The notes below the pieces were generated by a model. That model was given only the letters and a program-made list of their open reading frames with translations. It was not told the DNA's origin and did not search any database. From Rhodobiaceae bacterium (GTDB lineage: Bacteria > Pseudomonadota > Alphaproteobacteria > RS24): DNA of 64,000 nucleotides. The stretch is from positions 62,001 through 126,000 of the forward strand of contig JAHEGN010000001.1 of assembly GCA_024645085.1 (NCBI GenBank). The letters are read 5' to 3'. Of the stretch, positions 11,704 to 19,043 are shown one piece after another. How positions within the stretch are numbered: the first letter of the stretch is position 1; each line of letters begins with the position of its first letter. Made by a program: the position numbers and the translations under genes.

Positions 11704-11778
11704 GGGCGATTAGCTCAGCGGGAGAGCACTACATTGACATTGTAGGGGTCACTGGTTCAATCCCAGTATCGCCCACCA
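11704..11778 (+). tRNA. tRNA-Val (anticodon GAC)
   Basis: Complete cloverleaf of 75 bases including an encoded CCA. The acceptor stem GGGCGAT (11704-11710) pairs with ATCGCCC (11768-11774). The D arm contains TAGCTCAGCGGGAGAGC. The anticodon stem CTACA/TGTAG encloses the loop TTGACAT, so the anticodon is GAC and reads GUC/GUU valine codons. The T arm has the standard GGTTCAATCCC. It is a single tRNA with its own promoter candidate. Confidence 0.98.
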
Positions 11779-11911: not shown

Positions 11912-12445
11912 TTAGAAATTTCTAATCAGACCTAAACGGATAGTCTCAACGTCAAGCTCTACGTTTGTATCGTCGGTAAATTCGTCATAAGTCATTTCGA
12001 ATCTCAAACCAAGATTTTCGCCCAAAGCATAGTCTAAGCCCACGCCATAGTAAAAACCATCATCATCAATTGAACCTGAGCCGCTGGCGCCGGAAAAATC
12101 GAAGTCAGTAGCTTCATAGCCTAAAAGGACGAAGGGTTTCGCAAAACCTACGTCATAGGCAAAGACGGCGGCAATCTCAGTTGATGTGGCTTCGCCATTC
12201 AATTGGGTTGAGCCATCATCACTCAAGAAATCATCATCGCCATGCTCGGCGTAAGTAATTTGAACCGCCGTGTCGACATTTGACAGAAGGTCAAGCTTGC
12301 GACCCACGGTAATGGCATAGCCGTTACTCTCGAGTGTCGAAACTTCAGAATCTACATAAGACAGACCAGCATAATATGGCCCGGCAATTGCTGAGGTCAT
12401 GACACCCAGTGTGACGGCCCCGCTTAACATGAATTGTTTAATCAT
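11912..12445 (-). CDS. Small outer-membrane beta-barrel protein
   Basis: Predicted secreted outer-membrane protein of 177 residues. A signal peptide covers residues 1-21, ending in TSAIA before GPYYAGLSY. The rest is rich in Gly, Asp and alternating aromatic strands (YAGLSYVDS, FYYGVGLDYAL, LGLRFEMTYDEF) and ends in Phe, the usual Bam recognition residue. This fits an 8-strand barrel of the OmpA-like/porin-like superfamily (outer membrane protein beta-barrel domain). The function is unknown and no peptidoglycan-binding domain is present. It is monocistronic, with its own terminator. Confidence 0.75.
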   Translation of the reverse strand: MIKQFMLSGAVTLGVMTSAIAGPYYAGLSYVDSEVSTLESNGYAITVGRKLDLLSNVDTAVQITYAEHGDDDFLSDDGSTQLNGEATSTEIAAVFAYDVGFAKPFVLLGYEATDFDFSGASGSGSIDDDGFYYGVGLDYALGENLGLRFEMTYDEFTDDTNVELDVETIRLGLIRNF

Positions 12446-12703
12446 TTATCGCTCCAATACAGAAATACTCAATTTTACTAATATAAGAGGAAAATCTAAT
12501 CCCCTAGCCAACACAGATTTTGTTCGTTATTTTTCAAGCCTGAAAAGAGGTTTGTTTTCTGGCCACAGCCCCGAATTGGTGCTGGCATTGCCGTCGGCTG
12601 TGGTCCTGCGCTTGCGGTAGGCGGCGTTGCCGATCTGAGTTTACTTATTGACGCTATTGCTGCAATTTACCAAAATAAGCCATTGCTCTCGGGAGTGTCG
12701 TTT

Positions 12704-13408
12704 ATGCAAAATGGTTATGTTGAATTCGGACTTTACATGTTTGGCGTCTTTCTTATCGCTCAGACGATAAGGCACATTAAATATCTAAATTCCCTTTATG
12801 GGGGAAAATACCCTCTCCTGCTGCTCCTAGCTTCACTTATTTACCCGGTCTTTGCAGCTGGGAAGAGCGGATATTTTTCAAAGGTTTTTGATTATTTCAT
12901 TATAAGCTTCTTCTTCTGGCTGGTTTACATTGCCGTCCGCCTGATAATCGCCTTCAGAAATAGTGAGATGTGGCAAAGTGCAAAGAGCGGATTCCAAAAG
13001 GGGCAGAATCTGGCCAACTATCAAATTGGAGGGGCCGCGTTCGGCAAATCTTCTTCTGGTGAGAAAAAGAAATCTGTTTTTGGCACGGCGGCTGCTCCTC
13101 CTCCGCCTAAAAAAGAGAAGAACATATCGGTTCAAAATACAACCGCCCAACAGCCTGCCCAACCGGCAAAAAAGGAAAAACCAAAACAATCCTCTCAAAA
13201 GACGGTTACCCCTTATTCCGCCTCGCATAAATTGTGTGCCACTTGTGCGTTGTGGGGGGGTGCTCGGGAGATTGATACCGGTCGAATTGTGGTCAGGACT
13301 GAAGGTCCTAACGTGAAAGGGAAATGTTTAGGCGGCGGTCACAACAACCAGCTGGTGCCGGCAACGGGACATTGTGCCCAACACCAAAAATGGAGTACTT
13401 TGCGTTAG
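12704..13408 (+). CDS. Membrane protein with disordered linker and C-terminal Cys4 domain, function unknown
   Basis: I do not recognise a named family. The 234 residues split into three parts. Three hydrophobic segments (about 4-21, 36-53, 62-84) form a membrane anchor. Residues 95-172 are a Pro/Lys/Gln-rich, probably disordered linker with a PPPP run. A compact C-terminal module follows with Cys178, Cys181, Cys208 and Cys224, of the pattern CATCALWGGAR...GKC...GHC. This spacing suggests a small zinc or redox knuckle facing the cytoplasm or periplasm. GGGAG precedes ATG 12704. The reading frame is open upstream to about 12502 without a start codon, so the true 5' end is uncertain. Confidence 0.7.
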   Translation: MQNGYVEFGLYMFGVFLIAQTIRHIKYLNSLYGGKYPLLLLLASLIYPVFAAGKSGYFSKVFDYFIISFFFWLVYIAVRLIIAFRNSEMWQSAKSGFQKGQNLANYQIGGAAFGKSSSGEKKKSVFGTAAAPPPPKKEKNISVQNTTAQQPAQPAKKEKPKQSSQKTVTPYSASHKLCATCALWGGAREIDTGRIVVRTEGPNVKGKCLGGGHNNQLVPATGHCAQHQKWSTLR

Positions 13409-13547: not shown

Positions 13548-13589
13548 ATGACCCGCTTCATTTATCGCATGGCCGTGAAAAGCATATGA
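13548..13589 (+). other. Short open frame with strong ribosome site; probable frameshifted start of the next gene
   Basis: GGAGATAGGC directly precedes an ATG at 13548 that opens only 13 codons (MTRFIYRMAVKSI) and ends in a TGA overlapping the ATG at 13586. In the other frame the same DNA reads HGREKHMISALQAYHP and runs straight into the following protein. A single-base deletion near 13565 would explain both observations: the real protein would begin MTRFIY and continue with (S)HGREKHMISA. The alternative is a genuine 13-residue leader peptide that couples translation. Confidence 0.5.
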
Positions 13590-14212
13590 TTTCTGCATTG
13601 CAGGCCTATCATCCTTTGATCATCGAGGGAATGGGCGGCTATGACGCGCGCGATCCGGCGCTTGTCTGTCAGCAAATTATCAAAGATTTGCAGCAGGCAT
13701 GGCGCAGGCGCGCCCCTGAAAAACCAGTTCTGCTTGTCACCCAAGGCGACCCTTATGAGGACAGGGGCATCGCGGCCATCACCCGCGGTGTTGCCGATGG
13801 TCTAAAGATTCCGCGCGGCTTGATTTTTCTAGATCGCCAAATTGCTGATTACCACGCCGCCAATGCGGACCGTTATAAGGTGATTGTCGAGATTGCTTAT
13901 TCGCAGATGGCTGACCGCCTAGAGGCCGCACAGGCCGGGTGCCTCGAAGCGCTCTCGCAGCAGGTTCGCGCCCGTATAGCTGCCAAGAATGGTGAGCGTA
14001 AACAGCATCATAAGCCGGCATTACCGGCCTATTATTTCAATTTCGCCATGCTTCAGGAAACCACCAAAGCGGCCTGCAAACAGCTGTGTGGCGGCATCAC
14101 CATTGCCCATACAAGCCGCGAGATAAACCAGTTTTCGGTGACGAGTTTTTATCAGGTCGGGCTGGCCTTGGGGCTGATTGACGCCGCCGACATGGTGCCC
14201 TTCGGCGGCTAA
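13586..14212 (+). CDS. Uncharacterised protein, N terminus probably displaced by a frameshift
   Basis: I do not recognise this family. The 208-residue frame has no signal peptide or membrane helix. It begins with a beta-alpha pattern, HPLIIEGMGGYDARDP, followed by a second buried strand VLLVTQGDPYEDRGIAAITRG near 47-67, suggesting a Rossmann-like alpha/beta fold. A charged helical middle follows, and then a C-terminal half with ITIAHTSREINQFSVTSFYQVG. The in-frame ATG at 13586 has no proper ribosome site, whereas the ATG at 13548 in another frame does, so about 13 N-terminal residues are probably misplaced. It is flanked by other orphan genes on the same strand. Confidence 0.6.
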   Translation: MISALQAYHPLIIEGMGGYDARDPALVCQQIIKDLQQAWRRRAPEKPVLLVTQGDPYEDRGIAAITRGVADGLKIPRGLIFLDRQIADYHAANADRYKVIVEIAYSQMADRLEAAQAGCLEALSQQVRARIAAKNGERKQHHKPALPAYYFNFAMLQETTKAACKQLCGGITIAHTSREINQFSVTSFYQVGLALGLIDAADMVPFGG

Positions 14213-14391: not shown

Positions 14392-14868
14392 ATGAAGTTT
14401 CTAGCTGACTTCCTGAACCAGGCGCATACTGGTGAGCAGAAGGTTGTTGGGCGCTATCCAACGGAATTCGCAGGCCTGCGGGTCAGGGTTTCTTTTGGTC
14501 GGGGGAGACCAGCGCGTATTCCATGGATCGCTTTCCTTGCAGGTGGCATGGAAGTCAGAGACGGATATTACCCCAATTATTTGTATTACAAGAAAAATAA
14601 AAAGTTGGTTTTGGTCTTTGGTATTAGCGAAGATAACCAACACCACAGGCAATGGAGGGCAGACATAGTAAAGGGTAAGCCGCGCGTGTGTGAGGTCATT
14701 CAAAACCCGTATCGTTATGGAGATAGCTATGTGTACAAAATTTATGACGTGCGTGAGCAAAACGGCGTCAGGCAAATTTGCTATGGGAATCAGCAAGTTT
14801 CGGAAGAAAAATTGAAGGACGACCTTGAACAAATTTGTATATATTACGAGCTAAGTCTGTCCCATTAG
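14392..14868 (+). CDS. Orphan McrB N-terminal-like DNA-binding domain protein (DUF3578/MrcB_N)
   Basis: A 158-residue protein whose centre matches the MrcB_N pattern. It has VSFGRGRPARIPWIAFL at about 33-49, DGYYPNYLYYKK at 57-68 and LVLVFGISEDN at 73-83. In restriction systems this domain sits in front of an AAA+ GTPase (McrB) and helps recognise modified DNA. Here it stands alone: the frame stops at residue 158, and no GTPase, McrC nuclease or methylase lies nearby. The coding sequence is visibly richer in A/T than its neighbours, and the ribosome site is weak. It may be a remnant, or a stand-alone modified-base reader. Family assignment is by pattern recognition only. Confidence 0.65.
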   Translation: MKFLADFLNQAHTGEQKVVGRYPTEFAGLRVRVSFGRGRPARIPWIAFLAGGMEVRDGYYPNYLYYKKNKKLVLVFGISEDNQHHRQWRADIVKGKPRVCEVIQNPYRYGDSYVYKIYDVREQNGVRQICYGNQQVSEEKLKDDLEQICIYYELSLSH

Positions 14869-14956
14869 GGTGTGGGGGCTGCTTTCAAGGTTGCCATGCT
14901 TGCCGTAATTCGTGGTGCGGCTTAAGGTGGCTGACGCATCGTTTAGTGAGGTTTAA

Positions 14957-15316
14957 GTGGCTTTTTTTATTGTTAAAATAGTGCTCAGCGCGCTGGTGAT
15001 CGCTGTCGTGACTGAGGTGGCTAAGCTCAGTGATAAATGGGGTGGGCTGATTGCGGCGCTGCCGACCACCACATTTTTAATCATCCTATGGATGTATGTC
15101 GAAGGCGCCTCAGATGAAAAAATCGCCCGCCATGTCGGCTTTACCATTTATTTCGTCCTGCCAACCCTGCCCTTGTTTTTCGCCCTGCCATTTATCATCA
15201 ACCGTTTCGGCTTTCTGCCCGGGTTTTTTGTCAGCCTTGGGCTAACAGCACTGCTCATCTATTTATTCAATCTCGTCTATATGCGCTTTGGTGTGTCGAT
15301 TATCTCCGGCTCGTAA
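14957..15316 (+). CDS. Small four-helix membrane protein, DUF3147-like
   Basis: Inner-membrane protein of 119 residues with four hydrophobic segments (about 3-22, 30-50, 61-82, 84-110). The cytoplasmic loop ELAKLSDKWGG is replaced here by EVAKLSDKWGG, followed by LIAALPTTTFL, which resembles DUF3147 proteins. The role is unknown. It starts with GTG at 14957, supported by GAGG 5 bases upstream. The next gene begins 88 bases later on the same strand. Confidence 0.7.
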   Translation: MAFFIVKIVLSALVIAVVTEVAKLSDKWGGLIAALPTTTFLIILWMYVEGASDEKIARHVGFTIYFVLPTLPLFFALPFIINRFGFLPGFFVSLGLTALLIYLFNLVYMRFGVSIISGS

Positions 15317-16378: not shown

Positions 16379-16711
16379 CTAGTCTATCCATTTGGCAAAG
16401 GGAGCGGTATCGACGCCGGCCGGAACGTACCATTTTTTGACGTCGCCATCCCAGCGCCCGCCTAATGATTTGCACTCATCCTTATCGCCAAACGGACAAT
16501 TCAAATAAGTCTTTTCGCCTTGTGCTTCCTCTTCGGCGGCAGCGACCGGGGCAGGGCTTGTGTCGCCTTGCATCCATTTTTCAAAGGGTGCGGCCTCCAT
16601 GTCATCGGTGATATACCATTTTCTGGCATCGCCATCCCATTTGCCGCCCAGCGATTTGCACTCATCCTTATCGTCAAAGGGACAGTTTAAGAATATTTTT
16701 TCTTCAGACAT
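16379..16711 (-). CDS. Tandem DUF5710 domain protein
   Basis: Two copies of one 43-residue module fill this 110-residue protein. Copy 1 (about 4-47) has FLNCPFDDKDECKSLGGKWD followed by RKWYI. Copy 2 (about 68-110) has YLNCPFGDKDECKSLGGRWD followed by KKWYV. An acidic Ala/Glu/Pro linker joins them. The pattern matches DUF5710, normally found attached to TraC-like primases, DNA-processing enzymes and phage proteins, where it is thought to contact DNA. Here it occurs without an enzyme. Each copy keeps two Cys. The binding partner is unknown. Confidence 0.82.
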   Translation of the reverse strand: MSEEKIFLNCPFDDKDECKSLGGKWDGDARKWYITDDMEAAPFEKWMQGDTSPAPVAAAEEEAQGEKTYLNCPFGDKDECKSLGGRWDGDVKKWYVPAGVDTAPFAKWID

Positions 16712-18244: not shown

Positions 18245-19015
18245 TTATGCATCACTTTCCGTGACCGCCACGTGCCAGATAATCAGGCCAAAGGCGATTT
18301 TGTTCAACACATCGGCGAGGTTATAAACGATGTTCAGAGTGCCTGAATCAACGCCTGAGCCCATATAGCCGAGGTAATAACCAATTGGATAAATTGCCCA
18401 ACCGAAAGTCACAATATTGCGCATCAGTTTAAAGGCTGACTGAACAGCCGGGCTCGCATCAGCTGAGCTAATGCGGCTTGCTTCACCCAGAAAGATTTCA
18501 TACAGGACGACCAACCAGAAGAAGGTACCGATGATGAAACCAGCGGTTACATTGATGTAACCAGCTTCGCCCAAATAACCGAATACCAGCATTAGTGTTG
18601 TGCCGATCAGCAAACGCCAGAACACACCTGTTGGCACTTTGGTGATGGCGGCGAGAATCAAGAAAAACTCAACCATCAAAAGCGGCACAGTGATCAACCA
18701 GTCAATGTAACGATAAACTGTTGGGGTTTCGCCAGTCGAAATCCAAACGTCGCGCATATAGAAATAATGCACGGCGGCGACCAGTGTTACCAAACCTGAA
18801 ACAGTCAGAGATGTTTTCCACTTTGCCTGAACGCGGTCACGTTCAATGAAGAAGAAAACAGTGGCGGCTACGAGAGCCATTGAAATGAGCCAAAATGAAA
18901 TACCAACGAAATCATTTGGCTGTAAGTTGGCTTCAGCCGCGACGGCCATCGATGGCAAAGCAGTCAAACCCAATGCACCAAAAACAGCGATGCAACTATT
19001 ACGCAAATTAAACAT
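18245..19015 (-). CDS. Proteorhodopsin, green-absorbing proton pump
   Basis: Light-driven outward proton pump of the inner membrane. The 256-residue protein has a signal peptide ending in AVA near residue 27 and seven helices. Key residues are His83 (partner of the acceptor), Asp105 (proton acceptor, in RYIDWL), Thr109, Leu113 (tuning site, Leu = green), Glu116 (proton donor) and Lys239 (retinal Schiff base, in LNKIAFG). They match D97, T101, L105, E108 and K231 of the SAR86 reference. I chose the second of two ATGs because GGAGGA is 6 bases from it but touches the first. It is transcribed alone. No carotenoid or blh gene for retinal is in the window. Confidence 0.97.
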   Translation of the reverse strand: MFNLRNSCIAVFGALGLTALPSMAVAAEANLQPNDFVGISFWLISMALVAATVFFFIERDRVQAKWKTSLTVSGLVTLVAAVHYFYMRDVWISTGETPTVYRYIDWLITVPLLMVEFFLILAAITKVPTGVFWRLLIGTTLMLVFGYLGEAGYINVTAGFIIGTFFWLVVLYEIFLGEASRISSADASPAVQSAFKLMRNIVTFGWAIYPIGYYLGYMGSGVDSGTLNIVYNLADVLNKIAFGLIIWHVAVTESDA

Positions 19016-19043
19016 AAACATTCCTCCCGTTATGTTAGCTATG

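Follow-up and report, generated by a model that had tools for sequence, protein, structure and literature searches.

The window analysed here, 64,000 nucleotides of a contig from a Rhodobiaceae bacterium, holds a gene for a protein of 158 amino acids, which we call the reader. The gene lies at 76 kb within a contig of 154.8 kb. It and its nearest features are, in window positions:

11704-11778, tRNA-Val
11912-12445, outer-membrane barrel gene
12683-13408, + strand, gene upstream of the reader gene, with no Pfam family over the cut-off
13586-14212, + strand, second gene upstream of the reader gene, with no Pfam family over the cut-off
14392-14868, + strand, reader gene (ATG to TAG), a stand-alone MrcB_N/DUF3578/ADAM domain of 158 amino acids, assigned by profiles and structure model
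14869-14956, + strand, the 88 bases 3' of the stop codon, with no trace by six-frame inspection or tblastn of the linker and NucS_C nuclease present in relatives

The next gene starts at 14957, 88 bases after the stop codon, and has relatives in four other genomes (G002, G004, G005 and G009). An empty site could not be defined by synteny; in G002 this downstream gene has different surroundings. Among ten neighbouring genes scanned with Pfam, none carries a defence-type domain or a nuclease. A search for a sigma-70-like promoter and for a terminator around the reader gene returned zero of each, but as 0.9 of each is expected in shuffled sequence, this result is uninformative. The interval from the tRNA-Val to the reader gene, with the barrel gene and the two Pfam-less genes, is possibly a variable stretch. 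Farther downstream the minus strand encodes a small protein with two DUF5710 domains (16379-16711) and a bacteriorhodopsin-like protein (18245-19021; Pfam E 2.1e-49).

The first-pass annotation had seen an MrcB_N/DUF3578 domain in this frame from the stretches PWIAFL and YPNYLYY, both of which lie inside it. This was borne out by Pfam MrcB_N (PF12102), which matches residues 27-149 with an E value of 9.3e-8 and 32.3 bits (cut-off 25). The McrB equivalog of NCBIfam matches residues 3-114 (E 5e-22), with 78 bits against a cut-off of 637, so that the protein is not a full McrB. In a phmmer search of the PDB, the closest solved structures by sequence were those of the DNA-binding domain of E. coli McrB (3ssc, E value 4.4e-21). 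The fold, too, agrees with what had been proposed. An AlphaFold2 model built from 13 aligned sequences has a mean pLDDT of 89.2, a pTM of 0.88 and no segment below 50; all 20 Foldseek matches at E <= 0.001 are McrB-N chains. By VIA-align the model superimposes over the whole chain on E. coli McrB-N (3sse; Z 20.6, rmsd 1.9, 144 residues aligned, 35% identity; same fold in 3ssc and 3ssd), whereas the best entry that is not McrB-N reaches only Z 4.6. The last helix of the model spans residues 138-156 and the chain finishes two residues later, at 158; the end of the gene (14868) thus coincides with the end of the domain. Pfam finds no AAA domain in the chain, which ends at residue 158, and none of the PADLOC families matches it up to E 10. 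The protein is a complete McrB-N domain and nothing more. In E. coli, on the contrary, an AAA+ GTPase follows the domain in the same chain (PMC11090510, in part) and mcrB lies beside mcrC.

Single-chain relatives with a NucS-type nuclease

The best match in our genome surveys is a protein of 301 amino acids from a genome of the same family as the source (G012), 44% identical to the reader and fused to a NucS_C domain. In this protein, in one from a genome of the same class (G146) and in three from archaeal or bacterial genome bins (L005, L006 and L007), the MrcB_N domain is joined directly to NucS_C in one chain of about 300 residues. Pfam recognizes both parts (MrcB_N with E 1.5e-8 to 1.5e-11, NucS_C with E 1.7e-10 to 1.1e-14), and the window domain is 40-44% identical to the five fusion proteins. 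What they have and the reader lacks is a NucS_C nuclease, about 130 residues long, at the C-terminus. McrB_N-NucS_C single-chain proteins are encoded at:

L003, 1501-2406
L020, 1492-2406
L005, 6001-6912
L006, 5989-6915
L007, 5989-6927

In a maximum-likelihood tree of 17 domains, the window domain and the five fusions form a group with support 99/96, apart from 11 McrB domains; the tree omits two partial copies (L012 and L004) as well as the more distant matches L021, L022, L026-L029 and L050. In addition, in both the window domain and the NucS_C fusions the hairpin that precedes the last helix is longer. The fusions are, therefore, the closest kin of the reader, and the earlier description of the protein as the front half of McrB does not hold. 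From its place among the single-chain NucS_C fusions it follows that the lost part is a fused nuclease and not a GTPase motor with McrC beside it. That the gene is nevertheless a remnant of a classical McrBC system which lost GTPase and McrC is the most improbable of the explanations that we considered. It could be argued for from the frequency of such systems, since nine of 13 loci from the species-genome collection have long McrB-type frames (four by Pfam, the rest by eye), but the tree and the shared hairpin speak against it, and no McrC was matched in the source genome by a profile of limited reach.

The nuclease half of the fusion proteins resembles NucS. Its sole matches among solved structures at E <= 0.01 are NucS and EndoMS (PDB 2vld and 5gke), which have the same nuclease core; the reader has none of it. 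NucS/EndoMS has a role in mismatch repair and carries a different N-terminal domain. D222, E237 and K239 (numbering of L006), which we take to be the PD-(D/E)XK catalytic residues, are invariant in the three aligned fusion rows and are visible in L003 and L020. PADLOC PDC-S02 matches the five fusion proteins with E values of 3e-44 to 2e-49, solely from residue 140-163 to the end, and does not match the window protein; in the accessible part of one of the four papers naming PDC-S02, it appears merely as a listed candidate system. A structure prediction of the full fusion (L006 and two relatives) was too poor for use (pLDDT 52.0, pTM 0.38).

McrB_N-NucS_C proteins occur in unrelated bacteria and archaea, and it is probable that they are Type IV restriction enzymes that need no GTPase. 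In the literature searched, which lacks most subscription papers, we found no name or description for this architecture; this is weak evidence for its novelty. ADAM/DUF3578 is assigned to McrB in the accessible portions of PMC11090510 and PMC7641849, and NucS is named in the main text of neither. The G+C content of the reader gene is 45.5%, compared to 51.8% for the window, and the fusion genes are below their own flanks in G+C at four of five loci. Both observations fit a horizontal arrival.

In our surveys for relatives of the reader, the single-protein query matched 3 of 144 genomes, alignment A2 matched 3 of 28 and 6 of 385, and alignment A3 matched 5 of 398, 1 of 2 and 2 of 369; the samples overlap, and the source genome is included in the sets of 144, 28, 385 and 398. 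Twelve distinct genomes have a match, and the bare domain is found in one of them, the source genome itself. Two have NucS_C fusions (G012 and G146), three have GTPase-type proteins with AAA_5 (G266, G311 and G614) and one, of the same genus as the source, has a broken fragment (G001). This fragment (L004, 1219-1461) covers residues 53-132 only, is 80% identical to the G012 protein and contains an internal stop. The other genome of the genus, G002, which is 85% complete, gave no match with alignment A2. G672 has yet another reader architecture, MrcB_N joined to NOV_C in one frame of 378 amino acids (L029, 1291-2424), and in G710 MrcB_N is followed by 435 residues that have no Pfam match at 1e-5. 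In G700 the frame of a McrB-like gene (L026, 409-2842) ends within MrcB_N, and a transposase-like ORF comes just after, both judged by eye. The match in G292 carries a UvrD helicase and has no MrcB_N match at 1e-5, and that in G1028 has no Pfam match at the same threshold.

A scan of the species-genome collection gave 13 loci, comprising three NucS_C fusions, one fragment (L012) and nine long McrB-like frames. Four of the nine were scanned with Pfam and all four have MrcB_N over the cut-off; AAA_5 falls below it in L008 and exceeds it in three, barely so in L014 (22.1 against 22). McrB was assigned to the remaining five from their length and a Walker-A-like GLSGSGKT or GLAGSGKT. The L012 fragment consists of just the first 86 residues and is 80% identical to L007. 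Together with G001, this indicates that genes of the McrB_N-NucS_C family do get broken.

We also looked for the reader on mobile elements. A phage origin was rejected, as neither the window protein nor the G146 fusion matched any of 50,697 phage records. The single-protein query found nothing in viral contigs, and a profile match in one viral contig (L030), with 25% identity in a phage ORF of 378 amino acids and no likeness by eye, was taken as chance. A plasmid origin was dismissed as well; the window protein gave one partial match of 37 residues, in an E. coli record of 4.9 Mb. The G146 fusion matched 23 plasmid records, none over more than 80% of its length and, among the 20 listed, mostly with the nuclease half. 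Six of the 23 were inspected. Five are annotated as NucS-domain proteins and L056 as hypothetical, Pfam finds NucS_C in five of the six (not in L056), and four of the six adjoin restriction-modification genes. Two of the six have an N-terminal domain named by Pfam, DUF7669 in L053 and a weak AlwI-like match under the cut-off in L055.

The missing nuclease half

The NucS_C nuclease half is absent from the reader frame and from its flank. When four full-length fusion proteins were compared to the window by tblastn, all four found the reader half at 14392-14862 with E 2e-32 or better. Among the first 12 pieces listed, the others were scattered, with E 0.034 or worse, and none fell in 14869-14956; inspection by eye of these 88 bases in six frames likewise gave no likeness to a nuclease. 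Since no trace of linker or nuclease is left next door, the loss was not a simple nonsense mutation, and it could be old.

An error of the assembly, by which the nuclease half of a gene that really encodes the whole fusion was dropped, has to be considered because the genome is a draft in 48 contigs. We regard it as highly improbable. The gene lies deep in its contig, the next gene begins 88 bases on and has orthologues in related genomes, although with other surroundings in G002, and no nuclease sequence is found nearby in any frame.

The source genome (1,705,443 bases, 48 contigs) is 99.65% complete. The MrcB_N profile matches it once, in the frame at 14392-14868, although this profile misses some members and matched none of 14 control genomes, E. 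coli included. With protein and alignment queries the reader was again a single copy. The stand-alone nature of the domain asserted by the first-pass annotation thus stands: the chain lacks a GTPase, and the McrC profile (PF10117) has no match in the genome. This profile misses some McrC proteins; among the 14 controls it matched only Methanosarcina and not E. coli, although E. coli K-12 carries mcrB and mcrC. NucS_C has no match over the cut-off in the genome. Its sole match, a frame of 137 amino acids with 20 bits against 24, was considered as a nuclease acting in trans and rejected, as sequence and neighbours look UPF0102-like by eye.

The first-pass annotation had proposed a genome search for mcrB/mcrC and DNA methylases. 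McrC was unmatched, as was the cytosine-C5 methylase family PF00145, which was found in none of the five genomes searched, the source included, and in 10 of the 14 controls. One N6/N4 methylase is present; its best match is CcrM (1.9e-186), under the cut-off of the model (619 of 830 bits).

These searches also bear on the idea that the fusion was split and that the reader acts together with a nuclease whose gene lies at another place of the genome. There is precedent for such an arrangement, since reader and cutter of McrBC are separate chains (PMC11090510, in part), and NucS_C-type domains are also found with other N-terminal parts. A partner of the reader is hard to name, however, given that McrC is unmatched, that the only NucS_C candidate is the UPF0102-like frame below the cut-off and that the ten scanned neighbours include no nuclease. 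A split fusion is, accordingly, very unlikely.

The modified-base pocket and the fate of the gene

In E. coli McrB, W49 and Y117 are presumably pocket residues. The corresponding codons of the reader gene and three others in question are:

14524-14526, + strand, W45, equivalent to E. coli McrB W49 by alignment, W in 16 of 16 other domains
14569-14571, + strand, Y60, equivalent to E. coli McrB Y64 by alignment (role from PMC3874153, in part)
14575-14577, + strand, N62, an unusual residue in the pocket strand, V in five of five fusion proteins and in 10 of 11 McrB domains (G in one)
14581-14583, + strand, L64, equivalent to E. coli McrB L68 by alignment (role from PMC3874153, in part)
14716-14718, + strand, Y109, equivalent to E. 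coli McrB Y117 by alignment

According to the accessible part of PMC3874153, McrB-N flips a base into its pocket, where Y64 and L68 contact the methyl group, and E. coli McrB binds DNA via its N-terminal 161 residues. A protein of 158 residues should, then, be able to bind DNA without the remainder. W49, Y64, L68 and Y117 are the same residues in the window protein; indeed, W45, Y60, L64 and Y109 are identical in all 17 aligned domains. Among the 21 columns that are invariant across the 16 other domains, 20 are retained in the reader, the exception being Y to F at residue 76. In contrast to V66 of E. coli McrB-N, the reader has N62, which sits between Y60 and L64 and could alter the specificity. 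With the pocket residues kept and the nuclease half absent, the protein is probably able to bind modified DNA and unable to cleave it.

The best explanation of the locus is a truncated single-chain, modification-dependent nuclease, and the gene is most likely a leftover whose reader has not decayed. The ancestor would have been one chain of McrB-N reader, short linker and NucS-type PD-(D/E)XK nuclease. Linker and nuclease would have been lost in the source genome, leaving the complete reader. Intact fusion relatives are expected to cut near modified bases without a GTPase motor. The reader that is left would fold alone and flip a modified cytosine (5mC, 5hmC or 4mC) of incoming DNA into its pocket, so that modified DNA may be held but not cut by it. 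Given that the genome has no match to a cytosine-C5 methylase, it would target DNA from outside, for example of phages with 5mC or 5hmC. As a leftover, it would be at most a weak obstacle on such DNA that acts by binding only.

Three functions had been offered at first for the gene. The decayed restriction gene fits best, given the broken relatives in G001 and L012, and the other two have less in their favour. That the protein reads 5mC placed by the cell itself is less likely as the genome has no PF00145 match, and for a competitor of modification-dependent nucleases no known rival nuclease was found (McrC none, NucS_C none clear).

Not everything agrees with a leftover. The reader frame is not visibly decayed and has no internal stop. 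In relative-rate tests of the window domain against two nuclease-bearing relatives, none of 30 gave p < 0.05 (lowest 0.053), a result compatible with a recent truncation or with an old one under constraint. Moreover, the stop lies at the border of the domain, a place that random truncation would hit only rarely, by our estimate about one time in ten. The main alternative is a stand-alone reader kept by selection as a binder of modified cytosine, which may coat 5hmC or 5mC phage DNA and block its expression without cutting. We consider a kept reader possible, but rather unlikely. Its strengths are the clean end at the domain border, a complete fold modelled with high confidence, the retained pocket residues, a rate of change that is not measurably raised and the missing PF00145 match, by which modified cytosine would mark foreign DNA. 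Against it, the bare form occurs in one genome only while two other members of the family are plain fragments, and the ten scanned neighbours have no defence-type domain. Furthermore, two substitutions, V to N at 62 and Y to F at 76, affect sites at which the other domains vary hardly or not at all. In a leave-one-out count the window domain retains 36-40 of 43-48 invariant columns and the fusion proteins retain 41 of 43-48; the fusion protein is ahead by one to five columns in every pairing. Somewhat more doubtful still is a sentinel for modified cytosine that works without cleavage, a former nuclease now selected as a reader. It would silence or shield foreign DNA that is modified, in a host without a C5 methylase match. 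Weighing leftover and kept reader against each other, we lean towards the leftover.

A reader maintained by selection would be nature's version of the isolated McrB-N domain. It would mark modified DNA but leave it intact, and would offer a small probe for modified cytosine that is ready for use. The fusion relatives, for which the literature searched holds no description, lend themselves to a direct test for Type IV restriction activity. Even as a leftover, the reader draws attention to a compact enzyme of about 300 residues in bacteria and archaea, which would combine McrB-N and NucS and work without a GTPase.
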